Assembly: GCA_018399255.1 (NCBI GenBank)
Contig: JAGYPA010000012.1
Location: 22,832 to 86,831, forward strand
Length of the DNA: 64,000 nucleotides
Origin: Spirochaetales bacterium
Lineage (GTDB): Bacteria; Spirochaetota; Spirochaetia; JABMQR01
Direction: 5' to 3'
The notes beneath the pieces were generated by a model. The model did no database searches. It had not been told where the DNA came from and worked only from the letters and a program-made list of their open reading frames with translations. Both the position numbers and the translations under genes were made by a program. This document shows positions 25,153-64,000 of this stretch, piece after piece; the stretch's first letter is position 1; each line of letters begins with the position of its first letter.

Positions 25153-27360
25153 ATGAACACTATGTCTTTCAGAAAAAAATCTTCATCAGGTCGGAAAGAG
25201 ATTCCGATACTGGGGGAAAGGAAGATGCATCAGCAAATGCAGATGCAATTGACAAATCGATCGCAAAAGCTTGATTATGGCCGGGAGCGTAAACTGACAG
25301 GTATCTATGCGATGTCAATTTTCTTGCTCATGCTGATTTTCGCTTTTAGTGCCGGATGTGATACAGGTCCTTCACCAGGAACGGCTTCACTGACTATTGT
25401 CCTCAACGACGGAACGGCTCCAAGCAGAACCCTGCTTCCGGAGACATCAATCACAGTAGCCTATTATACGGTATCCGGGACAGGACCCGGCGGCGGGGAG
25501 TTTTCTGTAAGTACTCAGAATGCTGACGTCACCATCCCGGGTCTGGAAACCGGCACCTGGCAGCTGACTGCTTCGGGCTGGAATGAGAATAACTGCCGCC
25601 TGATTACCGGAGAATCAACCATTGACCTGACCCCGGATACAAACGAGGTGGGTATTATTCTGGATGAATACTATGGTACCGGCACATTATCAGTTATCAT
25701 CACCTGGGATGCTGGAAGAACCTACAATGCCGATCTTGTTCTTTTCCTTTCTGCAAAGGGCGAAAATGAAGCTGAAGCTGAGGTTACCCCGACCGTGGCT
25801 TCCGGATCCGCGTCCTTTGAAACGACCCTGGAAGCCGGTTCCTATCTATTACGGGGTGTTCTCTATTCAAACGGAGAACCGCTTGCTGGATTTGTTGAGG
25901 CCGTCAGAATATCAGATTCATCTGCAACGGGGGGAACTGTTGCCATAGATCTGGATACCCTTGTCAGCAATCTGTCCGCCTCTCTGGAAAACAATACTTC
26001 TCTGCCGGTGCAGGGATCGATTTCCGGCATCCCAGACCCGTTCCCGGCAGGAACATCTGTTAATCTTACTTTCACGCCTGAAAACGTCCCGGCCGAGGAT
26101 CTCGGCAGTCTTACAGCCGCCTGGTATCTGGATGGCCTCTACCTTGGAACCGGGCTTACACAACAGATTTCACCAGACGCCGGAACCCATCGCATCGATG
26201 TGCTTGCTCACACGAGCAAAGCAGGAAGTACAGGATCGGCTTCCAGTATTTTCCTTGTCTCTCCCGAAGCCGAAGGGGGGAGCGAAGATGACCCGCCTGA
26301 TCCGCTGACAGTTTCCATAATCAGCGACAACAGCAACGGAGCCATGCTCGATGGGGCTGAATATATCGAAGTCCTTCCTGACGGACTCATAATCACTGCC
26401 TCCCGGGTGGATGATGCACTCCAGACATGGAGAATTGAAAACAGCAGTCTCGTTCTCAAACAGACCTTGGTAAACCCCGCTGATTACCTACTGAACGGTG
26501 TACAGGAAATTTCTTCTACATCCGACGGCAGCCTTGTATTTGCCATCAGCGACTATTCCAAATCGATTTCGATCTTTTCCCATGCCGAAGGCAGTGACAG
26601 TTTAGAATTGGTAGAAACATATGACTCGTCAATAACCATTGGTGAAAACACCTATAATTTCGGAATGCTTAACAGCATTACTGTTGACTCGGACAGTCAG
26701 AATATCTATATATTAGACCGCTATGACCATCATATCTACCATTACATTTATGACGGAACAGAAGTAGTTCCTGTGGAGTGCTACAGCTACCTCACGAATC
26801 CCCTGATTGAGCAGCCAAAGAGTATTTCTCTCTCCCCTGATGGACTATGGATGGCAGTTGCGTCCTACACCACCAATGCTTTGTTTATTTTTGCGATTGA
26901 TCCGTTAACGCAAATTCCTGCGGTTGATACAATCCTTACCTACGCCGATACGGGCACTATGGGAATTGGTGACATCAATTATGCGGTATTTGCAGATAAC
27001 ACCACTCTCCTTACTACATCGCAGGATTATTTCAGTGTTTTCAAGTATGGTGAACCTTCACCAGGCGAGCCGGCAGTCTGGCATCAGACCCAGAGAATCA
27101 GCGAGGGCAGCGGTGCTGAGATACTGGATGGACCAAAACATATTAATATCTGTGATGATAATAATACCATTTATATAAGCAATTCAATATCTGCTGGACT
27201 TTCAGTATTCACCCGTAATTCAGTCTCAGGAGAATATGAGTACAGCAGCTTTATCGAGCTTGCCCCCTTTATTCCAACCATGTCGGTCTGCTCAGCAGAT
27301 GGGAATTTTATTATTTCTCCCTCATCCTCAATGGATGAGCTGGCTTTGATCAGTCGCTAG
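25153..27360 (+). CDS. Lipoprotein with Ig-like segment and beta-propeller-like C-terminal domain
   Basis: FLLMLIFAFSAGCDTGPS lipobox; C-terminal SLSPDGLWMAVASYTTNALFIFAID and related blade-like repeats; GGAGGTGAT SD. Confidence 0.75.
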   Translation: MNTMSFRKKSSSGRKEIPILGERKMHQQMQMQLTNRSQKLDYGRERKLTGIYAMSIFLLMLIFAFSAGCDTGPSPGTASLTIVLNDGTAPSRTLLPETSITVAYYTVSGTGPGGGEFSVSTQNADVTIPGLETGTWQLTASGWNENNCRLITGESTIDLTPDTNEVGIILDEYYGTGTLSVIITWDAGRTYNADLVLFLSAKGENEAEAEVTPTVASGSASFETTLEAGSYLLRGVLYSNGEPLAGFVEAVRISDSSATGGTVAIDLDTLVSNLSASLENNTSLPVQGSISGIPDPFPAGTSVNLTFTPENVPAEDLGSLTAAWYLDGLYLGTGLTQQISPDAGTHRIDVLAHTSKAGSTGSASSIFLVSPEAEGGSEDDPPDPLTVSIISDNSNGAMLDGAEYIEVLPDGLIITASRVDDALQTWRIENSSLVLKQTLVNPADYLLNGVQEISSTSDGSLVFAISDYSKSISIFSHAEGSDSLELVETYDSSITIGENTYNFGMLNSITVDSDSQNIYILDRYDHHIYHYIYDGTEVVPVECYSYLTNPLIEQPKSISLSPDGLWMAVASYTTNALFIFAIDPLTQIPAVDTILTYADTGTMGIGDINYAVFADNTTLLTTSQDYFSVFKYGEPSPGEPAVWHQTQRISEGSGAEILDGPKHINICDDNNTIYISNSISAGLSVFTRNSVSGEYEYSSFIELAPFIPTMSVCSADGNFIISPSSSMDELALISR

Positions 27361-27414
27361 GCTGGCAGAGGAGGAAAAACTGACAATCTTGGAAGCCTGC
27401 AGCAAGTGAGGTTT

Positions 27415-27759
27415 CTAAGGAGCATACGGATAGTTTTTCCGGTTGGCAGGCAGCTGTCTGCCAACCGGACTTACTGCTGCAGCCGCAGCCAGATGCGCCC
27501 TGATCGTATTTTCACCCTTGGGAAGAATGTTTTCCACCATTACCAGGCGTTCATCATAGGGGTCAGCTTCCCGGATTTCCACCTCTATGGCATTCTCAGG
27601 GCATGCGCCAATGCACGCCCCCAGACCGTCACAGAAAAAGTCGCCCACAAGCCGGGCTTTTCCGTCGATAATTTGCAGAGCCCCCTCCGGACAGTCAGGC
27701 ACACATGCTCCGCACCCGGTGCAAAGTTCTTCATCAATGGTGATTATTTATCTTCTCAT
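27415..27759 (-). pseudogene. 2x[4Fe-4S] ferredoxin-type protein with in-frame TAA at codon 4 and diverged 3' end
   Basis: Reverse strand: ATG AGA AGA TAA ATA ATC ACC ATT GAT GAA GAA CTT TGC ACC GGG TGC GGA GCA TGT GTG CCT GAC TGT CCG; continues EGALQIIDGKARLVGDFFCDGLGACIGACPENAIEVEIREADPYDERLVM. Track ORF uses a GTG start after three cysteines of cluster 1. Confidence 0.65.
27439..27468. repeat. Near-perfect 30-bp palindrome
   Basis: ccggttggcaggcagctgtctgccaaccgg: 11-bp arms around cagctg. Confidence 0.85.
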
Positions 27760-27866
27760 CTTTTTTCTCCCTGTCTGCTCCTTACGGAAGAAGCACACGT
27801 AATCTGGTTTTCATCTATCCAGGGATCGATAATAATGAGATACTGATTTAATAACGGTAACCAATG

Positions 27867-28550
27867 TTACAATTCGAGCAATTTTTCCAGAGCCTCCGGC
27901 TTGCGAATAGAAACAGCCCTTCCGTTTGCTGTAATAAGCCCCTCATCGCACATGCGTGAGATCTCACGGGATAAGGACGGTCGGGCAGCCCCGAACATTT
28001 CGGCCATTTTGTCACGGGAAAAAGGGAGAAGCAGATCGTTTGAATGATAGCGGCTGCGAAGGCGAAGAAGGTAATCGGCAAAACGCTGGCGGATGCCGGC
28101 CAGCTCAGCAAGTCGGACTTTCTCAGCCAGAAATATCAGCTTATCACCCATATCGCACAGGAGACGGTCGAGTACTTCCGGATCGGCCTGGAACAACCGG
28201 GTAAGGCCGGAACGTGATATTACAGCCGTCCTGACATCGGTATCGGCTTCCAGGGTTACCGGTAAATGAGGATCTGTGGAAAACAGAATACCAGAAGCAG
28301 CAGGAGCCGGGGCTTCAAGCGTCTCAACCAGTACCGTTCTTCCGGAATACTCATAAATGCGGGCATTAGCCCTGCCTTCAAGCAGCACGTAGAGTTCCGT
28401 ATACCGGTTCCCTTGAGCAAGGATCCGTTCTCCCCGATGATAATTCTCTATCCGACAGTAAGCAGGGACCAGAATACTGCTGATTTTTTCCGGAAGGATT
28501 CCAAGAAACAGGGGACAACGGGCCAGCTTGACTGCATCTGAATGGGTCAC
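27867..28550 (-). CDS. Crp/Fnr-family transcriptional regulator
   Basis: cNMP-binding-like N-terminus (YHRGERILAQGNRYTELYVLLEGRANARIYE) and HTH (DKMAEMFGAARPSLSREISRMCDEGLI). Confidence 0.9.
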   Translation of the reverse strand: MTHSDAVKLARCPLFLGILPEKISSILVPAYCRIENYHRGERILAQGNRYTELYVLLEGRANARIYEYSGRTVLVETLEAPAPAASGILFSTDPHLPVTLEADTDVRTAVISRSGLTRLFQADPEVLDRLLCDMGDKLIFLAEKVRLAELAGIRQRFADYLLRLRSRYHSNDLLLPFSRDKMAEMFGAARPSLSREISRMCDEGLITANGRAVSIRKPEALEKLLEL

Positions 28551-29878
28551 AGCAGCTCCGCGGCAAGCTCGGCAAGCCGGCTCCGCTCTGATTTTTCAAG
28601 GGTAACGTGGCCGAATAGCTTCTGCCCTTTGAAAGCTTCGACGAGATAGGTAAGCCCATTGGAATCGCTGTCCAGGTAGGGGCTGTCAATCTGGTACGGA
28701 TCTCCAGTCAGCACCACTTTTGTCTCTTTCCCTGCCCGGCTGACAATGGTCTTAATCTCATGGGGGGATAGATTCTGGGCTTCATCAACAATAATAAACT
28801 GCTTGGGAAGAGACCTGCCGCGAATATAGGTAATCGCCTCAATTTCCACTTTTCCGCTTTTCATAACTGCTTCAATATTCTTAAATTCCGGTCTGGTGTT
28901 CACCGAGACAATAAGTTCCAGATTGTCAAAAAGCGGTTTCATCCAATGGGACAGCTTTTCCTCTTTATCTCCGGGTAAGAAACCGATATCCTTGCCCAGG
29001 GGCATAATGGGCCGGCTTGCCAGCATACGGTTATAGGCTTTACTCTCCATAACCTTGCGCAGACCGGCCGCCAGGGCAAGCAGCGTCTTCCCGGTTCCTG
29101 CCTTGCCCACCAGGGTAACCAGCGCTATTGAATCATCAAGGAGAAGATCAAATGCCATCTGCTGCTGATGGTTAAGGGGCATAATTCCGCTGACTCCATC
29201 GGTGAAAGATTCAACATACTTGAGGGTCCCCTTCCCATCCGAATCTGTCTGATACCGGGCAATATGCGGACTTCCAGTATCATCGCTGGTTACCAGATAC
29301 TGATTTTCCAATAACGGTTCTTCCCAGGTGACGGTCTTCCCGGCAGCCAGCTGCCGCTGGAATTCCCGGCTGACTGAAGCATCCCGAAACCCTGAATAAA
29401 GATCGGCAAGATATGCTTTCTGCTTCTCATAGTCAACAGCGTGCAGCCCGACGGCTCTGGCTTTGACTCTGGCATTTATGTCTTTTGATACAAAAAACAC
29501 CTCAGGCTTTGGTTTTGCTGCTGCTGTCCGCTCCTGGATGGTAAGTGCGCAGTAGATTATTTTATTGTCATTGCGGTCCAGAGGCAGATCTGATGCCAGT
29601 GACCGATCAAATTCAAGGGCAACCCGCAGGATCGATCCGTTCTCGATTTTTGCACCTTCCTTGTTCCCGTTATGTGCAGTCCGCTCCTCAATAAAGCGGA
29701 TTGCCTGACGTGCATTACGGCCGCGCTCATCAGAATAGGTCTTGAGCTTATCCAGCTCTTCAAGAACCCAGAGGGGAATTACGACCTCGCTGTCCTTGAA
29801 CGAAAGAATTGCGTCACTGCGATGGATCAGTACATTGGTATCGATTACAAATATCTTCTTCAGCTGTCTCTTCGACAT
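28547..29878 (-). CDS. PhoH-family protein with N-terminal PIN domain
   Basis: KKIFVIDTNVLIHRSDAILSF PIN; LVGKAGTGKTLLALAAGL...MPLGKDIGFLPGDKEEKLSHWMKP...FIIVDEAQNLSPHEIKTIVSRAGKETKVVLTGDPYQID. Confidence 0.95.
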   Translation of the reverse strand: MSKRQLKKIFVIDTNVLIHRSDAILSFKDSEVVIPLWVLEELDKLKTYSDERGRNARQAIRFIEERTAHNGNKEGAKIENGSILRVALEFDRSLASDLPLDRNDNKIIYCALTIQERTAAAKPKPEVFFVSKDINARVKARAVGLHAVDYEKQKAYLADLYSGFRDASVSREFQRQLAAGKTVTWEEPLLENQYLVTSDDTGSPHIARYQTDSDGKGTLKYVESFTDGVSGIMPLNHQQQMAFDLLLDDSIALVTLVGKAGTGKTLLALAAGLRKVMESKAYNRMLASRPIMPLGKDIGFLPGDKEEKLSHWMKPLFDNLELIVSVNTRPEFKNIEAVMKSGKVEIEAITYIRGRSLPKQFIIVDEAQNLSPHEIKTIVSRAGKETKVVLTGDPYQIDSPYLDSDSNGLTYLVEAFKGQKLFGHVTLEKSERSRLAELAAELL

Positions 29879-30049: not shown

Positions 30050-31813
30050 CTAGCGCTTGTATACAGGCCTGGCCTGATAGGTAGTGTGCAGCAAATGATG
30101 TGATTTTTCGCTCAGAGGAGCTCCGAGGAAATCGGTATATATCTGCTTTATTTCCGGATTTTCATGCGAACAGCGCACAACATTCATTGAATCATCCCGA
30201 TATAGCCCCTCGATACGTTTCTCACGGATATTATCTGTAGTGGCATAGGGCTGTCCACCGCCGGCAATACAGCCGCCGCGACAGGCCATTACTTCGATAA
30301 AATGGTAGGGCATTTCGGTGTTTTTCTTTCTCGCTTCACGGATCTCATCCAGTATGACGCTTACATTTGCCATCCCGTGGGCAACAGCCACCTTTACTTT
30401 GGTCCCTTTGATATCTATTTCGCCCTTTCTGATACCGTCCATACCCCTGACTGCCGGAATTTCTACATCAGCCAGATCTTCTCCAGTCACAAGATTATAG
30501 GCTGTCCGCAAAGCCGCTTCCATTACGCCGCCGGTATTGCCGAAAATTGTTCCTGCACCGGAGTAGCTGCCGATTGGCGAATCAGCCGACTCGTCAGGCA
30601 GGGTAAGGAAATCAATGCCGGATGCCCGGATCAGACGGCTGAGTTCCCGTGTGGTGAGCACAAGATCCATATCCTGGCAGCCTGAAGCCTGCATATTGTC
30701 ATCGCGCACAATCTCAAATTTTTTGGCCGTACACGGCATAATGGCAACGGAAAAAATCTTCTTCGGATCAATTTCCTTCTGCTCAGCATAATAGGTCTTA
30801 GTAAGAGCTCCCTGCATCATCATTGGTGATTTGGCTGTGGAAAAATTGGGAATCATATCGCTGTAGTATTTTTCCATATAGTCGGTCCAGGCAGGACAGC
30901 AGCTGGTGATTTGCGGCATTTCTCCGCCCTGGGTAAAGCGCTGCACAAACTCGGAGCCCTCCTCCATGATGGTCAGGTCCGCGGCAAAGTTTGTATCGAA
31001 GACGGCATCAGCCCCAAGTCGCCGCAACGCAGCATAAGTTTTACCGGTACAGATAGTTCCCGGCTCCATGCCGAAAGCTTCACCAATCGCGACCCGTACC
31101 GCGGGAGCAATCTGGACGGCAACATGCTTATCGGGATCGTTAACAGCATTAAGAAACAACCGGGTTTCATCACGTTCGAATATTGCGCCAACGGGACAGT
31201 GGGCTGAACATTGTCCGCACTTGATGCATGGACTGTCATCCAGGGTAAGGTTGGCAGCCGGCGCTATGCGGGTTTCATCTCCGCGGCCGACAAACTCAAG
31301 AGCCCAGACTCCCTGCAGCGTCTGGCAAACCTGAGCACAACGGCCGCATTTGATGCATTTTTCGGGATTGAGAATAATTGAAGGGGTGGAGTCATCCTGG
31401 GGAATATCCTGCAGCCTGACTTCATAGGGCTGCTCTCTAATTCCATAGTCTGCTGCCAGCTTCTGCAGCTCACAGGATCCATTTCTTCCGCACTTGAGAC
31501 AGTCATTCGGATGTGTTGAGAGGATAAGCTCAATTACCGTTTTTCTGATAGTATGCAGTTCGGGATCATGGGTAATAATGGACATACCTTCAGCAACCGG
31601 GGTTGCACAGGCGCGGACCATCTTGGGCGAATTTTCCATTTTGACAACGCAGATGCCGCAGGCAGCCCATGCCGGCAGGTCCGGATGGTAGCAAAGTGAT
31701 GGAATATTGATATTGTTAAGTCTCGACGCCTGCAGAACATTATATTCCGCCGGCACGCTGACTGTCTGCCCGTTAATTTTCATGGTTACCATTTTCAAGG
31801 GGTTCCTCCTCAC
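30050..31813 (-). CDS. [FeFe]-hydrogenase catalytic subunit (HndD-like)
   Basis: H-cluster motifs TSCCPAWTDYMEKYY, MPCTAKKFE, EVMACRGGCIAGGGQP; N-terminal 2Fe-2S and 4Fe-4S motifs. Confidence 0.97.
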   Translation of the reverse strand: MRRNPLKMVTMKINGQTVSVPAEYNVLQASRLNNINIPSLCYHPDLPAWAACGICVVKMENSPKMVRACATPVAEGMSIITHDPELHTIRKTVIELILSTHPNDCLKCGRNGSCELQKLAADYGIREQPYEVRLQDIPQDDSTPSIILNPEKCIKCGRCAQVCQTLQGVWALEFVGRGDETRIAPAANLTLDDSPCIKCGQCSAHCPVGAIFERDETRLFLNAVNDPDKHVAVQIAPAVRVAIGEAFGMEPGTICTGKTYAALRRLGADAVFDTNFAADLTIMEEGSEFVQRFTQGGEMPQITSCCPAWTDYMEKYYSDMIPNFSTAKSPMMMQGALTKTYYAEQKEIDPKKIFSVAIMPCTAKKFEIVRDDNMQASGCQDMDLVLTTRELSRLIRASGIDFLTLPDESADSPIGSYSGAGTIFGNTGGVMEAALRTAYNLVTGEDLADVEIPAVRGMDGIRKGEIDIKGTKVKVAVAHGMANVSVILDEIREARKKNTEMPYHFIEVMACRGGCIAGGGQPYATTDNIREKRIEGLYRDDSMNVVRCSHENPEIKQIYTDFLGAPLSEKSHHLLHTTYQARPVYKR

Positions 31814-31871
31814 GCAGCTTTTAGTGCTCTTCTCAAATACTTTTAATTTCAGCGTTTACCGCTTTCCGGCG

Positions 31872-33659
31872 CTATCTGACAAATACCGCATCAAATTTAC
31901 AGGTTTCCAGACAGACGCCGCATTTTATGCAGAGATCGGGATCAATCCGGTGAACTTGTCTCCGCTCTCCGGTAATCGCCCCGGTCGGACATTTTCTGGC
32001 GCAGGCCGTACATCCTATGCATTTATCGGCAAGAATATGGAAAGAGATAAGTTCCTTGCAGGTACCTGCCGGACAACGTTTGTCCTTGATATGAGCCAGA
32101 TATTCGTCTTCAAAATAGTTGAGAGTAGACAGTATCGGGTTGGGAGCAGTCTGACCGAGGCCGCAGAGTGATGCTTTTTTCATGGCAAGGCCTATATCTT
32201 TCATCTTGCCGATATCTGCCATCTCCCCTTCCCCTTTGGTTATCCGGTCAAGGATATTATAGAGAGAACGTCCCCCTATCCGACAGGGTGAACACTTTCC
32301 GCAGGATTCTTCCACCGAGAAACCAAGATAGAACTTGGTTACATCAACTATGCAGTCGTCTTCATCCATGATGATCATACCGCCGGAACCCATCATCGAA
32401 CCCAGGCTGGTAAGGGTGCCGTAATCAATCGGGGTATCCAGATAATCAGCTGTTATAACTCCGCCGGACGGCCCCCCGGTCTGAACGGCCTTGAATTTCT
32501 TTCCGTTGGCTATGCCGCCGCCGATATCATAGATTATTTCCCGCAGGGTTGTACCCATGGGCACTTCCACAAGGCCGGAATTACTGATCTTTCCGGTAAG
32601 TGCAAATACTTTGGTCCCTTTTGAATCTTCTGTCCCGATTTTTGAAAACCAGTCGCCGCCTTTGAGAATGATTACCGGAATATTAGCCCAGGTTTCCACG
32701 TTGTTGATAACCGTCGGTTTGTTCCAGACGCCCTTGACTGCCGGAAATGGGGGGCGCGGTCTCGGCATGCCTCGTTCACCCTCTATTGAGGCCAGCAGGG
32801 CAGTCTCTTCACCGCAGACAAATGCCCCGGCTCCCAACCGTATCTCTATGTCAAAGCTGAAATCGCTGCCGAGAATATTATCTCCCAGAAGGCCGTACTC
32901 ACGGGCCTGCTGCATGGCTATTTTCAGGCGCTTTATGGCCAGCGGATATTCCGCTCTGATATAGATGTAGCCTCTACTCGCTCCGCAGGTTCGACCGGCA
33001 ATAGTCATAGCCTCGAGTATGGAGTGAGGATCGCCTTCCAGGGTGCTCCGATCCATATATGCCCCGGGGTCGCCTTCGTCAGCGTTGCAGACTACATATT
33101 TTTCACTTTCTTCCACATCTTTGGTAAAGCTCCACTTGAGCCAGGTGGGGAAACCCGCTCCCCCGCGGCCGCGCAGCTGTGCTTTCTTCAACTCCTGGAT
33201 AACATCATCCGGAGACATTTCAAAGAGTACTTTTTCAACGGCTGCATATCCGTCACGGGCAATATATTCGTCAATGTTTTCCGGGTCAATAACGCCGCAG
33301 TTTCTCAGGACAATACGAAACTGCTTCTGGTAAAACTGAATATCATCAACCTTTGCATTCTTCGTACTTCCCTTTGTATCATACTCCAGACGGGATACTT
33401 TTCGCCCTTTCACCAGATGCTCAGTTATGATTTCCTCGGCATCTTCCGGGGTTACTTTAACATAGAAAGTTTCATCAGGAAGCACTTTAACAATGGGGCC
33501 CTGTTCACAGAACCCGAAACAACCGGTTTTTACAACCTGAACCTCGTCGGTAATTCCCTGCTCTGTGCAGGCAATTTTAAGGTTCCTGAAAATCTGATCT
33601 GCCTTGCTTGATTCGCAGCCGGTACCCCCGCAGACTAATACATAGTTCCTCTTAGGCAT
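31872..33659 (-). CDS. NuoF-like hydrogenase subunit (HndC-like)
   Basis: AQLRGRGGAGFPTWLKWSF, CNADEGDPGAYMDRS, ESCGKCSPCRIG, C-terminal 2x[4Fe-4S]. Confidence 0.96.
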   Translation of the reverse strand: MPKRNYVLVCGGTGCESSKADQIFRNLKIACTEQGITDEVQVVKTGCFGFCEQGPIVKVLPDETFYVKVTPEDAEEIITEHLVKGRKVSRLEYDTKGSTKNAKVDDIQFYQKQFRIVLRNCGVIDPENIDEYIARDGYAAVEKVLFEMSPDDVIQELKKAQLRGRGGAGFPTWLKWSFTKDVEESEKYVVCNADEGDPGAYMDRSTLEGDPHSILEAMTIAGRTCGASRGYIYIRAEYPLAIKRLKIAMQQAREYGLLGDNILGSDFSFDIEIRLGAGAFVCGEETALLASIEGERGMPRPRPPFPAVKGVWNKPTVINNVETWANIPVIILKGGDWFSKIGTEDSKGTKVFALTGKISNSGLVEVPMGTTLREIIYDIGGGIANGKKFKAVQTGGPSGGVITADYLDTPIDYGTLTSLGSMMGSGGMIIMDEDDCIVDVTKFYLGFSVEESCGKCSPCRIGGRSLYNILDRITKGEGEMADIGKMKDIGLAMKKASLCGLGQTAPNPILSTLNYFEDEYLAHIKDKRCPAGTCKELISFHILADKCIGCTACARKCPTGAITGERRQVHRIDPDLCIKCGVCLETCKFDAVFVR

Positions 33660-39934: not shown

Positions 39935-42154
39935 CTACTCCGGCTTCACCACCTGATATGTATAATAGAGAAGCGCCAGGATAAAATCATAATCGGCTTT
40001 TGTATTAGTATTGAATCTTTCGCAGTACAGGGTAATTGATTTTTTTATATTGCTCTTACGTTCTGCCTCCGCCTCCGCTTCAGCAGATACAGAACTCCCG
40101 GTAGGAAAATCAGCCACAATCTTACTGCAGAAGTCAACAATTTTTCCGTACTGTTCGGTGCGAAACCAGCCCACCAGTTCCGGATGCCGACTCATGAAAT
40201 TCGGATGATCCCGGGTTTCATCCAGAAAATCCCTCAGCCCGGCGCCTTTCCTGACATTGCCTAATTGAAAAAGGTGGGCCAGATCGGGGGTATAATTGAG
40301 CAGTTCAGTATTCAGGGCAAAAAGACTCTGTCTGAATCGCCGACCCCCCTTCTCCATCCGGGAAGAAAAAAGATCCAGCAAATACCCCCCCCTCGGATCC
40401 ATATTGCTTAAGGCTATAGTAAAATTCATGCAGTTCCTGACGTCCTGCTCATCGAGAAACATCCCGGATATCCGATCAAGGGAAGCCGTGTGCCCGATTC
40501 TGCCCAGAGCCTTAGCAGCGGAGGCCCTTATTCGCGCTGAAGAACTCTCAAGGAGGTTGAGCAGCAGTTTTTCCGATTCAGCGCCCCTATAGGCTCCCAA
40601 TGCGAATATCGCCTCATTCTGCGTGTAGGAATCATAGTCGGCGGCTTCATCGAGAAGGAGCGGCAGCAGCGAAGGCCGCGGATTATAAAACAGCGCCCTG
40701 ATAAGTTCGGCTTTTTCAGAAGAAAAGGGAGAGAGCAGCATTCTTCGAATCTCACTTGTCGCTACATCATTCCGGTTACTTCCGATAGACAGCAGTACCG
40801 TCTGTTTTCGTATCGGATCACTGATTCTCTGCAGCTTACTGATGTGCATAAATGCACGCAGCCCATCAATGGAAAGAAGGAGGGCGGCAGCATCCTTATC
40901 CCCCATGGTATCGCTTTCTTCCAGATGCAAGGTCAGAAAAAAGACAAGAAAGCTTAAGAGCGCTCCCAGGGCAAAAGTCCAGGTATACCCATTCAGCAGA
41001 AGGGTTCCTCCGTTCGGTCCGTAATCGATCAGTCGGCCTCCAGCAATTCCCAGAGCAAGAGATATGAGGGCAGTAATAAAATCTACCATGGAGTTGAAGC
41101 CGATCCGGTCATTATCCGGCATAACCTGGATCATGAGCTTACCGATGAGCATGCGGGAAATGCTGACCATGAACATCAGCAGTATTCCTGGTATGAAATA
41201 GAATAGTTTCCCCAGTGTCTCCGGAAGAAGTGCCCATACAGCAGTAAATATCAGGGTAAACAATGAAGTCATAATAATCAGGGGCTTGCTGCCGATTTTG
41301 TCGGCAAAAGTTCTGACAAACATCGCAGCAAGTATTGTCGCAAGAGTAATTCCCATGGAAAAGAGGAAAACTTCACTCGTTGTAAATGAGAGTCTGCTGC
41401 GAACAAAAGGGATAGACATATTTGAAAGCACGAGAATGGAAATACTTAACCATTGCAGAATCAGGACCCGGAGCAGGTTTTTGTTTTTTCCTGCCGCACG
41501 CAGCTGTGATAAAACACCTGCGCCCTTTCTATACTCTACAGTTTCCCGGCAAGGTATCTTACGGACACTCAGGCCGGCAAGGGTATTCGCTAAAACGCCG
41601 AACAGCTGCAGCCCCATCAGCCCGTTGAGTCCGGAAAAGCGCTGGAAAGATGTAATGAGAAAGCTGGCACCCCTGGAAAAAATAGCCGAGGACTGAAAGG
41701 CGAAGTCCGACTTCCCAACAACCTGCCCTTGATTGGCATTAGTAGAGATCATCCTCATCATCGGCCGGAACATGACAACTCCGGCGGTCCGTATTATGGA
41801 AAAGGCGGTGTAAATGGCTAAAATCAGATAGACGGCGGCGCGTCCTTCTAAAAAATAGAGACCGGTATATCCGATGCATACCAGCCCCCGCAATATCCAG
41901 GCGGTTGACAATACGGCTACAATATTTTTTCCGGCAAAAAGCCGGGGAACCAGCGGAAGAAAAATCCCGGAAAGAAACGCAGCCGAAGAGATGTAACCCA
42001 GTTGGACATTACTGGCTCCATACATTATAGCCAGCAGATAGACGGTAGTATCTCCAAGGAAACTGTATCCCATACCGTTGAAGGACTGGAACTGTACAAG
42101 CCCTTTTACACCGCGCTGCTTCTCTTCTTCAGTCAGAAAGCGTGTCTTTTCCAT
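39935..42154 (-). CDS. MFS-type transporter fused to C-terminal HEAT-like repeats
   Basis: About 12 hydrophobic segments in the first ~420 aa, then ALGAYRGAESEKLLLNLLESSSARIRASAAKALGRIGHTASLDRI HEAT-like units. Confidence 0.82.
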   Translation of the reverse strand: MEKTRFLTEEEKQRGVKGLVQFQSFNGMGYSFLGDTTVYLLAIMYGASNVQLGYISSAAFLSGIFLPLVPRLFAGKNIVAVLSTAWILRGLVCIGYTGLYFLEGRAAVYLILAIYTAFSIIRTAGVVMFRPMMRMISTNANQGQVVGKSDFAFQSSAIFSRGASFLITSFQRFSGLNGLMGLQLFGVLANTLAGLSVRKIPCRETVEYRKGAGVLSQLRAAGKNKNLLRVLILQWLSISILVLSNMSIPFVRSRLSFTTSEVFLFSMGITLATILAAMFVRTFADKIGSKPLIIMTSLFTLIFTAVWALLPETLGKLFYFIPGILLMFMVSISRMLIGKLMIQVMPDNDRIGFNSMVDFITALISLALGIAGGRLIDYGPNGGTLLLNGYTWTFALGALLSFLVFFLTLHLEESDTMGDKDAAALLLSIDGLRAFMHISKLQRISDPIRKQTVLLSIGSNRNDVATSEIRRMLLSPFSSEKAELIRALFYNPRPSLLPLLLDEAADYDSYTQNEAIFALGAYRGAESEKLLLNLLESSSARIRASAAKALGRIGHTASLDRISGMFLDEQDVRNCMNFTIALSNMDPRGGYLLDLFSSRMEKGGRRFRQSLFALNTELLNYTPDLAHLFQLGNVRKGAGLRDFLDETRDHPNFMSRHPELVGWFRTEQYGKIVDFCSKIVADFPTGSSVSAEAEAEAERKSNIKKSITLYCERFNTNTKADYDFILALLYYTYQVVKPE

Positions 42155-55177: not shown

Positions 55178-57418
55178 ATGAAAAAATACTTCAGTACCAT
55201 CTGGTCAGATACTTTCAGCTATATTTCCCTTGCTCTTTATGGACTGCTGATCATCACTGCAGCCTTGTTTATTCGAAATCTGCAGGTTGCCGGCGGCATT
55301 GATGAAAACTTGCTTCCTTCAGCCAATGCATACAGTCAGAAGACCAGCCTCTGGCATAATGAGTTTCCTGTACAGCAGGCAGCTATAATAAATATCGCAT
55401 TCGATGATTCTCGTCCGTTCTCCCGGGAAAATCTGCAGAGGGCAAAGCTGCTTACCGAGCAGCTTCGTCAGAACGAACTCATCAGGGAGGTCTACGCCAT
55501 CACCAGCCTCGATGACAGCGGCCCGGACTCATTTACTGAAGAACCTTTCATGAATATTCAAGATCCGACGTCCCTTATCAAAGCCGAGCAGGCAATTCAA
55601 GAAATTCAGGTTCTCAAGTCCCTCTTTCTCAGCAGCAACAGCCGGGCTTTGCTTTTATATGTTGTAATTGAGGATTCCGCTGCAGCCGAAGATTTCGGGA
55701 GGTATTTTGACGAATTACGGGCAGAATGGAAAATATCCAGCATTAAGCTCTCGATTGCCGCCCCTCTTTATTATGAGTACCAAAACAGAAATCTTATAAT
55801 CCAGGAACTGATCCAGATTTGTGCAGGAGCCTTTCTCATTCTTCTTATCATCTATTTCATCTTTACCGGCAGCCCGAGAGCTTCCCTTGTTTTTTTAGTC
55901 AACAGCCTTATTCCTTCATTCATTCTTTTCGGGTTTATGACGCTTTTCGGAAAACCGATTGATATCATGACAATCTTTCTCCCGCTGCTGCTGTTCTCGA
56001 TAACCACTGCCTACAGCATTCACTACTTTAAGACAAGAGAAGTGCTGGGGAGCAGAAAGCTGACCCTCGAATCAATAGGCACAATTATTATGCTGTCGGC
56101 ATTTACTACCATCATCGGCTATACCAATCTGCTCTTTATTGAAGGGGAATCGATACGACGACTTGGTGCTTCGCTTATTATCGGCATCATGCTGGCGGTA
56201 TTTTCTATTCTTTGGTGCGTTCCGACGGTAGTGGAAAAGGTTCCCCCAAGAAAATTGAGGGGATGGGAATTACGGCTCCGGTCCACCAGCTTTCCTGCCG
56301 GCAAAAGCGGCAGGGTCATCGTCTCTATATTTATCGGCATTCTTCTTTTCAGTCTCGGAGGACTCTACTGGTATGGCCCTTCGTGGCATTTCAAGGATGG
56401 TTTTCAGCGCGAATTCCGGCCTTGGGTTCTTATCCGTCAGGAGGAAGAGCTGTTTGCTGAAAACAATGGATTTATACGGGAAATTGATGTCTTCATCGAT
56501 ACGGGAATTGAATATGGACTTATTGAACTGGAAATCTATCATATAATTGAAGAACTGACCGACGAGATTCGCAGCCTCGATACGCCGGCGAGAGTGATCA
56601 GCTATACCGATATTACTGCCTACGGAAATGGGATCCTCTATGGTGAGCATAAGGAAATTCCTCCGCATTCAGAAGTAGAAATTGGGGAAACACTTGAACT
56701 TGTTTCTTCTAATCGAAGCGATATTCCGCTGGATCTTTTTGTGGACATCTCTTTCCAGAAAACACGACTTATTGTACGCTACGACTCCTCTTCGGTGACC
56801 AACAGTCATCAAAGCTATCTGCTGGACAAGAAAATTGTTGATACAATTGAAGCCTTACTCTCACCCCATACCTATCTGGATGTGCATCTTTCCGGTCTGC
56901 CGATTCTGCAGAAAGAGCTGATCAACTACTACCTCGGCATGGTCGCCAAGGCATCGATATACTTTTTTCTGCTCGTTGCAGCTATCGGTTTTCTGGTGCT
57001 GCGCTCGATAAGAAAGTGCCTGCTGCTGGTTCTTCCCTCATTTCTTGCCATGCTCTTCTATGCGGGTATTAACGGCTGGCTGCGGCAGCCGATTTCTGTT
57101 TTCAACATTTTCGGTCTGTATACCCTGCTGGGCATCAGCGTCGATGACACCTTCTACTTTCTCATCCACCACCGACGCGAAGAGCGCTCCAGTAAGGGAA
57201 TCTCTCCCTATGCTGTCGTAACAAAGGTTTACCGCAGGACTGGCATCAATATTCTTGAAACCACTCTGATTATTTCTGGCGGAATAGCGGCCGCCCTTGC
57301 TTCAGGCGTCATGCCCATATTCAACACCATTCTGGTAACCTTGCTGGCTCTTAACTTCTCCACAGCAACTACTCTTTTTATCATGCCGCGGTTTCTCTTC
57401 CGTGAAGGCAGTATTTAG
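55178..57418 (+). CDS. MMPL/RND-superfamily exporter
   Basis: 746 aa; two sets of ~5-6 TM helices around soluble loops; GISVDDTFYFLIHHRREE and ITTAYSIHYFKTREV RND-type TM4 motifs. Confidence 0.88.
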   Translation: MKKYFSTIWSDTFSYISLALYGLLIITAALFIRNLQVAGGIDENLLPSANAYSQKTSLWHNEFPVQQAAIINIAFDDSRPFSRENLQRAKLLTEQLRQNELIREVYAITSLDDSGPDSFTEEPFMNIQDPTSLIKAEQAIQEIQVLKSLFLSSNSRALLLYVVIEDSAAAEDFGRYFDELRAEWKISSIKLSIAAPLYYEYQNRNLIIQELIQICAGAFLILLIIYFIFTGSPRASLVFLVNSLIPSFILFGFMTLFGKPIDIMTIFLPLLLFSITTAYSIHYFKTREVLGSRKLTLESIGTIIMLSAFTTIIGYTNLLFIEGESIRRLGASLIIGIMLAVFSILWCVPTVVEKVPPRKLRGWELRLRSTSFPAGKSGRVIVSIFIGILLFSLGGLYWYGPSWHFKDGFQREFRPWVLIRQEEELFAENNGFIREIDVFIDTGIEYGLIELEIYHIIEELTDEIRSLDTPARVISYTDITAYGNGILYGEHKEIPPHSEVEIGETLELVSSNRSDIPLDLFVDISFQKTRLIVRYDSSSVTNSHQSYLLDKKIVDTIEALLSPHTYLDVHLSGLPILQKELINYYLGMVAKASIYFFLLVAAIGFLVLRSIRKCLLLVLPSFLAMLFYAGINGWLRQPISVFNIFGLYTLLGISVDDTFYFLIHHRREERSSKGISPYAVVTKVYRRTGINILETTLIISGGIAAALASGVMPIFNTILVTLLALNFSTATTLFIMPRFLFREGSI

Positions 57419-57430: not shown

Positions 57431-57674
57431 AACATTATATTGCGGAATCTCATTTTACGGCTTATGATTTATTATGTAACTATTGCAGTAGGCATTGGGT
57501 ATAAAAGAGCGGGTAAATGAGAATCATATAAAGTATACATACCTAAAGTATTTTTTTTGAGCTTCTTGCAGCCGACATTTGCAGTAATGAGGCTCTGAGT
57601 TTTTATTTGTATAAATACATTCTTTTTCTGCTTGCATGCTGTTTTACTGAATTATGACAAATTGGGGGTAGAGT

Positions 57675-60600
57675 ATGTTGTTACGTTCCACACTGAAAAA
57701 GCTGGCTGTCACTTTTTTTGCGGCGGTCTTTGTCCTGATCTCCCTGGTTCCGGCTGAAGGGGCTCTGCGAAGCGTTCGCACAAGAGCGCTGGATACTCCT
57801 GATATTGTCATAAAACCCTATGCTAACATGAGTTTTGGAACACTGCTGACCCAGTCAATTCTTCGGGCTACTATTATCAACGGTGATGCGGCGACACACC
57901 TGAAAATTGTACTCTCCATCAATATTGACACCGAAGGTGATGAAATAACTGACTGGGACGGCGGGATGGATATCATCATGGAAAGGGCGCTTGACGCCGG
58001 AGCAAGACTGACAATAGATAATGCAGAGATTTTTTCGAATTTCTTAGCCTTTCAAGAAGATTATGATTTTGACTTTGAAAATGCGGCATTCGGTGAGGAA
58101 GGCAGTTCCTACCCCGGAGGGTTGGCAGATGCTTTTGACTTCAGCAGCGGCGGTAATATCGATGCTGACACGTTTTTGAGCATAACACTTCCCGAGGGTG
58201 AATATGAGATGACAATAAAGGTTTTTGATGTGGATGCAGATTCTGTAAATCCTAAAGGAGAAGAAACAGTAACCTTTAAGGTTGTCGATATCGGCAATAT
58301 TACTAATCTATCCACCCCCACCGTGCAGGACCCGGAAGTAACATGGTTCCTGCCGCAAGTACCGATTTATACTTTCAGCTCCTACACCACCACATCAACG
58401 GTAACTATTACCGGCAAAGATGTTAATTACTCAAAAACCATCACTCATGCTGTTCCTGACGGAACAGGCCTGAAAGGCTATCCCGGTGGGACTGACAGCG
58501 GCAATGCCGTACTGGACCTGAGCACCAGCGACCTCAACTTCCGGATGGGAGAAAGCTATTTTCTGAAAGTAGCCTTTAGAGACTGGAATGGAGCTCTGAT
58601 TAACGAACAAGAACAGGGATTCACATTCAGCCCTTCCGCCCCCGTCTACTATTCACCCGCGGGTGGAACCCAGGTTGATGAACTGCAGCCTACGTTTGAA
58701 TGGGCTTTCGATGCCTACGATCCATGGGTCGATACCTATACGCTCATCATAAAGAACAATACCACCAATCAAACCACCACCATACCCGGCATAACCGACG
58801 ACTCTTATACCCTGGATGCGCCGCTCGCGTTCGGCAGCAGCTACGCCTGGCATGTAGTTCCCTACTATACCAGTGACGGAGCAGCCTTCTATGTGACTCC
58901 ACCGTCCACGGCCTCCTTTTCTACCATTGCCCATACAGCCCCCGAAGTTACGCTCAGCGAACCGGCCGCGGGCAATCGCCTCCTTGCAGGAGAGAGCTAC
59001 GACTTTTCGGTATCATTCGAGACCTTTAACGACGCTTCGGTTGCCGACAGCGATATTGTCTGGCTGATTGGCGGCAGCACCTATACTGGAGAATCAATAA
59101 CCTACACGCCGTCAGGCAGATATCCCAATGACTCCCTGGAAGTAAGCTGCACCGTAACGGATTCAGCCGGCGGAACAGCAACTGCAGCTGCCAACGTTAC
59201 AGTTCTTGCGCCCGAGGCTGCCGTTGCCGGAGGAAACCTTACCAGATTTGCCAACGAGGAAGCTTCATTCGCTCTCGACAATGCGAGAACCAGGGACGCC
59301 GACAGTTTCGCATGGACCGTAACGGATCCTGACGGCGATACCGAGACAGATTCCGGCAGCAGCATCAACGTCAGCTTTGCCAAACTCGGCACCTATACCG
59401 TCACAGTCGCTGCTGTAACCGAAGACGACTATGGCAACGAGACAGAGGTTTCAGGCAATACTGTTTCCATCGAAGTATCCAGCCAGGGAGCACCCATCGC
59501 CGCCTTTGAAAGTCCAAGATCCCAAGGACTTTTGATGGTTGATGAGACCGTTCCCTTTACGGTATCGATAGCAGGCCCCAATGCGATTGCAAAGACAGTG
59601 TGGAGCATAAACGGGGAAGAAACCGAATATGACGGAGCCCGGGAGGAAATATCCTTTACTCCTGATGCTTCCTATCTGCAGTCCGGCCAGACAGGGACGG
59701 TAACGGTAACCTGTCAGGTGGAAGATGAGTTTGGTGACAGTTCGGTTCTGGTTTCCAGAAACTTTCTGGTTATCGAACCCGGCGTCTCCTTTATCAGTGT
59801 ATCGGAAGACAGCAGCTGGTCATTGGGAACTCCGCTTAACGGTTCCCTCAAGGCAGATTTTGCCCAGTCCACCCGCTGGTACGTCGACGGAAATCTGCAG
59901 CCCCGCGGCAGCTCCTACAATTTCAGCACACCCGGTGAGCATACGCTCAAAGCTGAGGCGAGCTGGCTTGCAGTTAATAGCTCGGGAGGAGAATCCACCC
60001 ATGAAGAGAGCACTGAGTTCTCGATATACGTAAAGGACAGTGTTCCGCCGACCCTTGCCATAACTTCACCGGACAATATCGCTAGTCTCTCATTTATTAC
60101 CAGCGTTGATTACAATTTTGTCGGCGAGGTAGTTTCCGATTCCCAGATCACCCGCAGATGGTGGACCTTCGGCAGCAGCTCGGAACAGGAGACCGATGAG
60201 AGCGGGCTGGTTACCCATCAATTTGCTCCGGGAACAACCGGCTCGGTCAAGGCAGTATTTTATGCCCAGAACACCGACGACGTAACCGGTAAGAAAGAGG
60301 TAAATCTTACGGTTCTCGACCCGACTGTTACTGTTCAATGGCCGTCTCAGACAATCTATGCTGCCGCTGCAGCAGTCCCGGTTTTCGGAACAGCTTCGGC
60401 AGGAACCCTCTACTGGAGTATTGAGGGCAATACGAGTGACGGAGACTCAATTTCGCAGGAGTACCGGAACAGTATCTGGGACAGGAAATTTGTAAAACCC
60501 GGCACCTATACTATAGCACCGCTTGTTAAAATCTCTGCGGCCTCCCCATCTGGAGGGACAGAGGAGTATACCAGAGACAATGATGATTCATTTGAGGTAA

Positions 60601-63600
60601 CAATCTACAGCACGGAACGTCCGACAATTACCGCTGCCTCCCCTGCTGCAGAGATTCTGCGCCAGAGAAAGAACGAAGCGATTGCCTTCTCCCTTGCTGC
60701 TGACAGCTTGAACGGAACCCCGACAGTATCCTGGAAAGTGCTGTCAAATGGTACGGAGATCGCATCGGAATCCGGTACCGGCAGCTTTACTTATGCATGG
60801 GAAAATACCGGTGTATACACTGTATCGGCAACAGCGGTAGATGATATGGGCCTCTCACGTTCAAAGAGCTGGTCAGTCAGCATTATCGATCCTCAGCTGG
60901 CCATCACCTATCCGGAAACGGGGAAAAAATACGGCGATAAATCATTTGAAAAACCCGCTGTTTCCAGCCAGAATGTTTCCTCGGTACAATTTTTCCTGGA
61001 TGGAGAAACAGAGCCGAAGCCTGCCAATTACGACTGGAGCTCTTTATCAGCTGGAGACCATACGCTGAAAGCAGCCGGTAATTACACCATCGCTGTCGCT
61101 GCATCCGGATCAGCGACAATGCGCCTTACCAGTGAAGAGGTTAATTTCACCATATCCGAACTTCTGCCCCCTGCTATTACCCTGACGGGAATCAGAAACA
61201 ATGACCGCCTGCTGGCCGACACTGACTATACAATATCGGCCGAAGTTACCAGTCCCGAGGGAACCGACATAAAGGGAATAACCTGGACTGCAGATGGTAC
61301 CGAATTCGGTACAGGGAACAATGCGGAATTCAATTCGGGAGCTGCACGGGGAACAAGAACGATAAAAATTACTGCTGTCGATGATTTTGATCTGGTATCA
61401 ACAGTTACTATTAGCGTCAAGGTAATTGATCCCTCACTGCAGATCATACTGCCGGAAGTCAATGGCACAACCGGCATTTACCCGGCAGAAACTCCGGTAA
61501 CCCTGCTCTACACTGGTCAGGATATCGAAGAAGTTGAGTGGTCGTTTGCCGGAACACGCTATCAATCCAACATGTTCCGCTTCCCGGAAGGATCCTTTAC
61601 CATGTCAGCTTTCGGCTCGATCAATGCCAGACTGGAAGACGGGATTTTGGGAACCCACACCGTTGAGGCTGGTAATCCTACCAGGATTACCGCTTATACA
61701 CAGCCGACAGCTTCCGTACCGACAGTTTCCCCCGGACAGTCACTTTTAGGCACAACCGTGACAGGAACCAGTACTTTTACCGGAAATCCGGATGCGGCAG
61801 CCTCTGCTGACTGGCTGCTGGACGGAGTAATGATAGCATCAGAAAAACCGTCCGGTGAGGACGGGGCTGTCAACGTTGAAATACCTTCACCGGCTATTGG
61901 TCAGCATACCCTTCAGCTGCGAATAACAGATATTTTCGGAAGGGTAAGCTCGGAACAAACCACATTTTCCGTATTTCAGCCGCTTGAAGCTGCTATTGAA
62001 TCACCCCGAAATGGAGACAGTTTCGGTCCAGATGCTTCAGTAGCCTTACGCGCGAAGCTGCTTAATGAAAACAATAGAAACCTTATCGACCGCCTCTTCT
62101 GGACACTTGATGGAAAGGAGATTTCTGGAAGCGACTTCTTCTCCGGCGTTATTCCCGCCCCGCGTCCGGGTGAGCATGTTCTCTCCTTCGGGGCAGATGA
62201 CGTATTCGGGGAAACAACCTCCGTCGACATAATCTTCTCTGTGCAGAGTGATCTGCTGCTTTCCCTGCTCTACCCGAAAAACAATATTACCGTAATGGAA
62301 GGATCGACCCAGACTTTCCGGGTTTCAGCCCAGGCATTGAGCAGTGATGTGGCGATCAGTGAGCTTGCAGAAAACATTACCTGGTATATTGACGATACAG
62401 AAGCGGGCACTGGAACCAGCCTTACTTTCAGCAGCTATGCGCCCGGCACCTACGAACTGCAAGCCAGATATGATGTAGGGGAAGTATCACGGGAAACCCG
62501 CAGCGTCAATGTAACCGTGGAAGAAATCAGGCCTCCGGAAATTATCCAGCCTGATCTGTCGCAAACCGTTTACTACACTGTCGGGCAGAGTGTTCCTTTA
62601 AAATCAGCGGGATACGATACCGCAGCCTATACCTGGATTCTTGACGGCACTGTCATCGGAAAGGGGCGAAATCTCAGTTTTTCCCCCAATGGAATGGTCG
62701 GCGCCTATCCGCTCGAGCTCCAGATGGATTACCAGGGAGTTTCAAAATCCGTCAGCACTATCATGCAGCTGCAGGTGAATACTCCCCCGGAAGTGACCAT
62801 AATTACCCCTCCTGTTCAATATATGGGAGATACCCTTGAATGGATTCTCTCCGCAATTGACCTGGAAGACGGTACCCTTTCCCCACAGCTCTACCTGGAC
62901 GGAACACCGTTGGCTTTGGATGCTTCGATTGTTTTAGCCGAGGATGATCTTGGACAGCACGAGCTTCGGGCTTCAGTCGTTGATTCCATGGGTTCAGCGG
63001 CACAGCAGCGACAGACCTTTACCGTCAAGCGCGGTATCGAGGGATTAGAAATCATCTCGCCTCTGCCGTCAAAGAGCTATGTGTCGGGCAAGCCCCTTGT
63101 CCTGCACGCCAGAATACTCGGCGATGTGGAAACTGCAGCCGGGGAAGAACTTACCTGGCAGGTGCAGTATCTCGATGCCGTTAACGGCGACTCAACCGCT
63201 GGTGAGAATATTACAGGAGAGAAAACCGAGTTTACCCCGAGAGCTCCCGGATCGGTCAGGCTGGAAGCTTCCTATACGCATGCCGAAACGGGTCAGACCT
63301 ACACAGCAGCCGCGGTAGTTACCGTGGATCCGGAACCGGTGACGATGTCGCTCTACTGGCCGCACGGGGAGCTGGTTGCCGAAGGCACTCAGCTGAAACC
63401 TGAGATTCTCGGGCTCAGTGAGGAAAGAATGACGGCCGGCACTATTGAATGGCTTCTGGATGGACAACAGCGGGTTCTCAGCAGTCTTGCAGCTCCGGCT
63501 ATCGGCGGCGAACACTCGCTTGCCGTCCGGTTCATTGAAGATGGTGCGGTTACAGCCCGGGATCAGATACTGTTCAATGTTAATGAACGGCCGAAAGTGA

Positions 63601-64000
63601 CGATTCTCTCCCCGGCGAAAGGATCCTACCACGAAGAGGGTAATCCGATTATCTTTACCGCCCAGACGAGCGATGATCAGCCGGCATCCGGCACTATCGA
63701 ATGGATCGGATCCGGCGAATCTGGCAATCAGATTCTGGGCACCGGCGCTTCCATAGCTCTGCAGGATCTGCCGGCCGACAGCTACTCAGTCAGGGCCGTA
63801 GCCACTGATCAGTTCGGTTTACAGAACAATGCAGCTTCTCCAGAGGGAACCGATGTTACCGGCTTTACCGTAATAAAACCGGTAAAAGTGGAGAATATCT
63901 CTGTCAACAACAACATCGGGACCTATCTGCTCACCTCAGGGAGCCCGATACCGCTTAACGCAGCAGTTTCAGGAGGGGTTGCCCCCTCTGTCCAGTGGCG
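57675..64000 (+). CDS. Giant exported multi-domain Ig/PKD-like repeat protein (incomplete, runs off window end)
   Basis: ATG at 57675 with GGGGG SD; MLLRSTLKKLAVTFFAAVFVLISLVPAEG signal peptide. I translated large stretches and the frame stays open to the last base (...SVNNNIGTYLLTSGSPIPLNAAVSGGVAPSVQW). Absent from ORF track. Confidence 0.88.
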   Translation, partial: MLLRSTLKKLAVTFFAAVFVLISLVPAEGALRSVRTRALDTPDIVIKPYANMSFGTLLTQSILRATIINGDAATHLKIVLSINIDTEGDEITDWDGGMDIIMERALDAGARLTIDNAEIFSNFLAFQEDYDFDFENAAFGEEGSSYPGGLADAFDFSSGGNIDADTFLSITLPEGEYEMTIKVFDVDADSVNPKGEETVTFKVVDIGNITNLSTPTVQDPEVTWFLPQVPIYTFSSYTTTSTVTITGKDVNYSKTITHAVPDGTGLKGYPGGTDSGNAVLDLSTSDLNFRMGESYFLKVAFRDWNGALINEQEQGFTFSPSAPVYYSPAGGTQVDELQPTFEWAFDAYDPWVDTYTLIIKNNTTNQTTTIPGITDDSYTLDAPLAFGSSYAWHVVPYYTSDGAAFYVTPPSTASFSTIAHTAPEVTLSEPAAGNRLLAGESYDFSVSFETFNDASVADSDIVWLIGGSTYTGESITYTPSGRYPNDSLEVSCTVTDSAGGTATAAANVTVLAPEAAVAGGNLTRFANEEASFALDNARTRDADSFAWTVTDPDGDTETDSGSSINVSFAKLGTYTVTVAAVTEDDYGNETEVSGNTVSIEVSSQGAPIAAFESPRSQGLLMVDETVPFTVSIAGPNAIAKTVWSINGEETEYDGAREEISFTPDASYLQSGQTGTVTVTCQVEDEFGDSSVLVSRNFLVIEPGVSFISVSEDSSWSLGTPLNGSLKADFAQSTRWYVDGNLQPRGSSYNFSTPGEHTLKAEASWLAVNSSGGESTHEESTEFSIYVKDSVPPTLAITSPDNIASLSFITSVDYNFVGEVVSDSQITRRWWTFGSSSEQETDESGLVTHQFAPGTTGSVKAVFYAQNTDDVTGKKEVNLTVLDPTVTVQWPSQTIYAAAAAVPVFGTASAGTLYWSIEGNTSDGDSISQEYRNSIWDRKFVKPGTYTIAPLVKISAASPSGGTEEYTRDNDDSFEVTIYSTERPTITAASPAAEILRQRKNEAIAFSLAADSLNGTPTVSWKVLSNGTEIASESGTGSFTYAWENTGVYTVSATAVDDMGLSRSKSWSVSIIDPQLAITYPETGKKYGDKSFEKPAVSSQNVSSVQFFLDGETEPKPANYDWSSLSAGDHTLKAAGNYTIAVAASGSATMRLTSEEVNFTISELLPPAITLTGIRNNDRLLADTDYTISAEVTSPEGTDIKGITWTADGTEFGTGNNAEFNSGAARGTRTIKITAVDDFDLVSTVTISVKVIDPSLQIILPEVNGTTGIYPAETPVTLLYTGQDIEEVEWSFAGTRYQSNMFRFPEGSFTMSAFGSINARLEDGILGTHTVEAGNPTRITAYTQPTASVPTVSPGQSLLGTTVTGTSTFTGNPDAAASADWLLDGVMIASEKPSGEDGAVNVEIPSPAIGQHTLQLRITDIFGRVSSEQTTFSVFQPLEAAIESPRNGDSFGPDASVALRAKLLNENNRNLIDRLFWTLDGKEISGSDFFSGVIPAPRPGEHVLSFGADDVFGETTSVDIIFSVQSDLLLSLLYPKNNITVMEGSTQTFRVSAQALSSDVAISELAENITWYIDDTEAGTGTSLTFSSYAPGTYELQARYDVGEVSRETRSVNVTVEEIRPPEIIQPDLSQTVYYTVGQSVPLKSAGYDTAAYTWILDGTVIGKGRNLSFSPNGMVGAYPLELQMDYQGVSKSVSTIMQLQVNTPPEVTIITPPVQYMGDTLEWILSAIDLEDGTLSPQLYLDGTPLALDASIVLAEDDLGQHELRASVVDSMGSAAQQRQTFTVKRGIEGLEIISPLPSKSYVSGKPLVLHARILGDVETAAGEELTWQVQYLDAVNGDSTAGENITGEKTEFTPRAPGSVRLEASYTHAETGQTYTAAAVVTVDPEPVTMSLYWPHGELVAEGTQLKPEILGLSEERMTAGTIEWLLDGQQRVLSSLAAPAIGGEHSLAVRFIEDGAVTARDQILFNVNERPKVTILSPAKGSYHEEGNPIIFTAQTSDDQPASGTIEWIGSGESGNQILGTGASIALQDLPADSYSVRAVATDQFGLQNNAASPEGTDVTGFTVIKPVKVENISVNNNIGTYLLTSGSPIPLNAAVSGGVAPSVQW

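Follow-up and report, generated by a model that had tools for sequence, protein, structure and literature searches.

A giant exported Ig-array protein and its predicted outer-membrane barrel partner in flagella-less Spirochaetia

Multi-Ig surface proteins of spirochaetes are known from Leptospira, in which the lipoproteins LigA and LigB carry ~12-13 Ig-like repeats and have no barrel partner. In inverse autotransporters (intimin/invasin) an N-terminal barrel and an Ig passenger are one chain, and type I adhesins such as SiiE and LapA have a long Ig-like array and no Sec leader, with genes for an ABC exporter, a membrane-fusion protein and TolC close by. The chaperone-usher pathway combines a 24-strand usher and its plug with a chaperone and pilins. 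In two-partner secretion (type Vb; FHA/FhaC, HMW1), described in PMC5422565, the gene for a large exported protein, whose N-terminal region is conserved, lies beside that for a barrel having two N-terminal domains; the exoprotein consists of a TPS (haemagglutination-activity) domain and a beta-helix, whereas the barrel has 16 strands and POTRA domains (Omp85 superfamily). Finally, the grappling hooks of Aureispira are heptamers of GhpA, a giant Ig-like stack secreted by the type IX system (T9SS) (PMC11205867; PDB 9flw, 9flp). Here we describe a spirochaete gene pair, called the cassette below, in which the giant is a known kind of Ig protein and the barrel partner is undescribed; the literature searched yielded no paper on this pair.

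The DNA analysed, referred to as the window, is a stretch of 64,000 nucleotides from a Spirochaetales bacterium (contig JAGYPA010000012.1, positions 22,832 to 86,831). An earlier note made from its letters had claimed an open frame of at least 2,108 codons that begins with a signal peptide, runs past the window and is missing from the ORF track. All of this was borne out: 2,108 codons are open from 57675 to 63998 on the plus strand with zero internal stops, and neither a stop nor a frameshift interrupts 57675-64000. The giant is absent from the ORF track because its frame runs off the window end; no stop falls within the window and the list leaves out run-off frames. The contig (C24 of genome G000) is 86,831 bases long and its last base is also the last base of the window, and therefore the 3' end of the giant gene is not recoverable from it. 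The contig extension that the note had proposed ends there, although the C-terminal part could be estimated from the 2.5-kaa orthologues, which put the full length at ~2,540 aa and the missing part at ~430 residues. The N-terminus reads MLLRSTLKKLAVTFFAAVFVLISLVPAEGA followed by LRSV, a Sec-type leader, and leaders are conserved among the aligned orthologues. A surface or periplasmic location would fit such a protein. The features of the gene are as follows (window coordinates, strand, feature, basis).

57664 to 57669, plus strand: putative ribosome-binding site GGGGGT, just 5' of the ATG (direct reading)
57675 to 63998, plus strand: 5' part of the gene for the giant exported Ig-array protein, cut by the contig end (open frame; orthologues)
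57675 to 57764, plus strand: predicted Sec-type signal peptide, residues 1-30, cut between AEGA and LRSV (sequence; AlphaFold2 helix 4-24; orthologue leaders)
57765 to 58655, plus strand: conserved N-terminal region, residues ~31-327, mostly beta, approximate edges (alignment; AlphaFold2 pLDDT roughly 35-90)
58662 to 58928, plus strand: FN3-like module, residues ~330-418 (alignments; AlphaFold2; weak fn3 match in an orthologue)
58929 to 63998, plus strand: Ig/PKD-type array, residues ~419-2108, 18 whole units plus a truncated 19th, of 22 expected in the complete protein (unit HMM; Pfam; AlphaFold2)

A scan for promoters and terminators 5' of the giant gave nothing above chance. An MMPL-family membrane protein gene lies 256 nt upstream on the same strand (window 55178-57418); no such gene was seen beside the giant at the other inspected loci. 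Elsewhere in the window, the minus strand encodes a 739-aa protein with a weakly MFS-like part followed by HEAT repeats (39935-42154) and [FeFe] hydrogenase plus NuoF-like subunits (30050-33659), the latter fitting an anaerobic fermenter.

The N-terminal region (residues ~31-327) is the hallmark of the family and is present in long and short members. The FN3-like module that follows it has three invariant tryptophans (W343, W351 and W392). In the remainder of the protein the motif W-x-[LIVFAT]-x-[GDN] occurs 14 times (residues 421-2108) versus 2.1 expected by shuffling (2,000 shuffles, maximum 8), which rules out chance as its source, and the closing strand G-x-[HYT]-x-[LIVA]-x-[AVLI] was observed 11 times versus 1.7 expected. 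With extra tryptophans within units set aside, the core Trp columns conserved among orthologues are mostly 83-105 aa apart. A unit HMM derived from the aligned orthologues detected 19 units in a row in the window part, with the final one cut, and three Pfam families scored above cut-off: Big_7 (41.0 bits, cut-off 24.1), PKD_3 (37.3, 26.3) and BiPBP_C (90, 26.8). AlphaFold2 modelling of residues 1-620 from a 10-sequence alignment gave a mean pLDDT of 77.5, with ~90 on the first two units, which have confident Ig-like folds, and lower values in the N-terminal region. The giant therefore has the tandem ~90-aa beta-sandwich domains and the Ig/PKD model matches that characterize bacterial Ig-like/PKD arrays. 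These data agree with the reading in the earlier note of an N-terminal domain, an FNIII-like module and an Ig/PKD-type stalk or adhesin array with a tryptophan core motif, a spacing of ~90 aa and a G-x-(H/Y) closing strand in each unit, and they supply the structure prediction suggested there as a check.

When the predicted structure was compared with the PDB using Foldseek, a GhpA fragment ranked first and SiiE (2yn5) was also matched. The TM-scores were low, and therefore the likeness is one of architecture, not kinship; no sequence homology of GhpA to the giant was found. The NCBIfam models T9SS_sortase and BT_3328 scored far below cut-off and were taken as Ig cross-matches.

Orthologues of about 2,490 aa are found in Sphaerochaeta and other Spirochaetota. 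Residues 1-2108 of the window protein align to ~26-2058 of a 2,490-aa orthologue at 32% identity, unit for unit, and this collinearity over the whole length, together with the intact frame, rules out an artefact or frameshift. The frame is real and functional-looking. The full-length orthologues of 2.5-3.0 kaa have 22 units each by the unit HMM, save one in which 21 were detected (L064), whereas short family members have six (L066) or three (L067) and a 5,528-aa paralogue encoded in the same genome (C185) has 48. Searching the giant against itself gave no match at E<=1e-5, which rules out recent tandem duplication and, together with the collinear orthologues, argues that the array is old; its unit number is nearly fixed in the long orthologues. 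The orthologue search and repeat count proposed earlier thus point the same way as the note's view of strongly diverged, old units. Among Sphaerochaeta-type orthologues, pairwise dN/dS was 0.09-0.11 (giant) and 0.06 (barrel), showing that both genes are under purifying selection.

The C-termini of the giants vary, with Gly/Pro-rich tails, helical tails and other ends. An FGPGG-x-PPDPGL-like motif recurs in the Gly/Pro-rich tails of L057, L059, L061, L062, L063, L065, L066 and L068. By eye the giants of C185 and G031 had looked FecR-like at their C-terminal ends; a Pfam scan at E<=1, covering the G031 protein, returned no match to FecR. Note that genome G005 encodes an 823-aa Ig-type protein (L023, 7316-9787) with a weak match to window residues 1428-1602; no barrel match was found in that genome.

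Immediately downstream of the giant, 12 of 12 named Spirochaetota loci have a gene for an ~860-aa protein (Sphaerochaeta, Sphaerochaetaceae and unclassified Spirochaetota MAGs; the giants of L059, L061 and L065 are either truncated or listed with a late frame start). The pairing also holds in the other whole genomes fetched, save one decayed copy. The interval from the giant stop codon to the barrel ATG is -4 to 45 nt, with an AGGAGG-like site in most cases. Scanning contigs with the giant itself as query returned nothing, whereas the partner alignment did find loci. The partner matched no NCBIfam family, and no Pfam family reached its cut-off; by sequence it gave only weak antibody light-chain matches in the PDB. 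The AlphaFold2 model (12 input sequences) combines two all-beta domains at the N-terminus with about 26 long strands (pLDDT 76.7, pTM 0.58) and predicts a large outer-membrane barrel, with strand count and pore approximate owing to the modest pTM and to Foldseek query TM-scores of about 0.2-0.33. The leading Foldseek matches include SDBC/SlpA (Deinococcus), the ushers PapC/FimD, MtrB and LptD, which are likewise large outer-membrane barrels, although their N-terminal domains differ and no sequence relation is detectable. The unit HMM of the giant recognises the second N-terminal domain of the partner, with scores of ~20 bits for the best members; the rest, which include the barrel copies of the window's own genome, score 4-14 bits.

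Like type Vb systems, the cassette encodes a giant exoprotein next to a predicted outer-membrane barrel, and it further resembles two-partner secretion in the conserved N-terminal region of the exported protein and the two N-terminal domains of the barrel. However, it is not a member: Pfam detects no POTRA domain in the partner, whose N-terminal domains are predicted all-beta, the giant has an Ig-like prediction and no Pfam match to a TPS domain or beta-helix, and the barrel model has about 26 strands rather than 16 (pLDDT 77, pTM 0.58). The giant differs from type I adhesins in its N-terminal Sec-type leader, and the inspected loci share neither an ABC exporter nor a type I cassette beside it; their flanks vary and only the barrel is conserved. 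Unlike inverse autotransporters, barrel and Ig chain are separate genes. As for chaperone-usher systems, the partner's usher matches reach only query TM 0.15-0.30, Pfam gave it no usher family, and chaperone or pilin genes were not noticed at the inspected loci. A complete orthologue has no T9SS C-terminal sorting domain by Pfam or NCBIfam. From LigA/LigB, fellow multi-Ig spirochaete proteins, the giant is set apart by their description, not by sequence.

In the window's own genome a barrel gene truncated at a contig end lies on contig C172. In a tree of the N-terminal regions the window giant groups as sister to the G031 giant (support 98/97), and a tree of the barrels likewise makes sisters of those from C172 and G031 (100/100); the C185 and L067 rows are long-branched and their exact placement is unsure. 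Because the two trees give matching sisters, they support C24 and C172 as probable neighbours flanking one gap of about 1.9 kb, a link that runs through the gap rather than contiguous sequence. The 5,528-aa giant (C185, 9657-26243; L011, L012) has its own intact barrel (26253-28904), and pairing of the window gene with that barrel was rejected, since it belongs to the paralogue. Ig arrays are widespread in bacterial secretomes, and the giant could in principle be an ordinary secreted multi-Ig protein with an unrelated porin-like gene beside it. The tight, strict pairing across several families, the second giant-barrel pair on C185 and the matching sister relationships of the trees make such a coincidence very improbable.

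Genes resembling a sugar-type ABC transporter and a sulfatase occur close to the C185 locus, as judged by eye from translations. Ig, PKD and FN3 modules are common in polysaccharide-binding proteins, and with this neighbourhood they would suit a pair in which the giant binds glycans, polymers or particles outside and the barrel imports the products. We consider this unlikely, given that neighbourhoods vary between loci and that no carbohydrate-binding or TonB-dependent-receptor family scored above cut-off in Pfam or NCBIfam.

Barrel matches were found in 14 of 395 Spirochaetia genomes. Matches to the N-terminal region, searched in a 393-genome sample of the phylum, fell in cassette-bearing genomes, plus one weak Ig-type match in G340. 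FliG scored above cut-off in 290 of the 395 genomes but in none of the 14 cassette-positive ones, and all 14 likewise lack FlhA, which both flagellated controls have. Fisher's test gave 4e-9 at genome level and 4e-5 at genus level, values that shared ancestry can inflate as the 14 genomes represent three families only (f1, f3 and f8). In this sample the cassette is restricted to flagella-less Spirochaetia, with lineage effects possible. Several flagella-less genomes, G005, G010 and G019 among them, have no cassette. In the complete Sphaerochaeta-type genome G236 the N-terminal region of the giant is broken by an ISL3-family transposase gene (L048, 6705-8677), and G276 lacks the giant and has only a truncated barrel gene (L053, 16400-18295). 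Because of this interruption and decay, the cassette is dispensable in some lineages.

The distribution bears on whether the giant might be a periplasmic tether or scaffold held on the barrel, giving the envelope strength or shape after loss of the periplasmic flagella. Besides the confinement of the cassette to genomes without FliG and FlhA, such a role would accord with a Sec leader that lacks a lipobox, with the lack of a recognised export signal in the giant and with the Ig-like domains of the barrel, which would sit in the periplasm. However, 22-48 units in a row far exceed the depth of the periplasm, although they could run along the cell, and the absence of the cassette from some flagella-less genomes and its decay in some Sphaerochaeta-like ones mean that it is not essential for envelope integrity. 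We regard the scaffold as rather doubtful.

We lean, at somewhat better than even confidence, towards a surface fibre or adhesin that is exported or anchored by its dedicated barrel. In this scheme the leader would take the giant into the periplasm by Sec, and the chain would then cross, or be fixed to, the outer membrane via the downstream barrel, as the constant pairing and predicted fold of the partner suggest. Outside, ~22 Ig-like domains would fold into a chain roughly 80-100 nm long, taking some 4 nm for each domain, and this chain may serve as a fibre or adhesin by which the cell contacts surfaces, particles or other cells. Neither a binding or catalytic domain nor a known anchor was recognised. 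Partner recognition probably lies in the N-terminal ~600 residues, since long members (22 and 48 units) have them in common with short ones (3 and 6 units). A more specific proposal, which we put forward tentatively as possible rather than probable, is that flagella-less spirochaetes have a new export and assembly system in which a ~26-strand barrel, with Ig-like domains replacing POTRA, recognises these ~600 residues and threads and anchors the Ig fibre.

In this cassette a giant Ig fibre goes together with a large outer-membrane barrel family that lacks a Pfam or NCBIfam name. As cultured Sphaerochaeta relatives exist, a possible route of giant-protein export is directly testable, and the contacts of flagella-less spirochaetes with surfaces or other cells also become testable.
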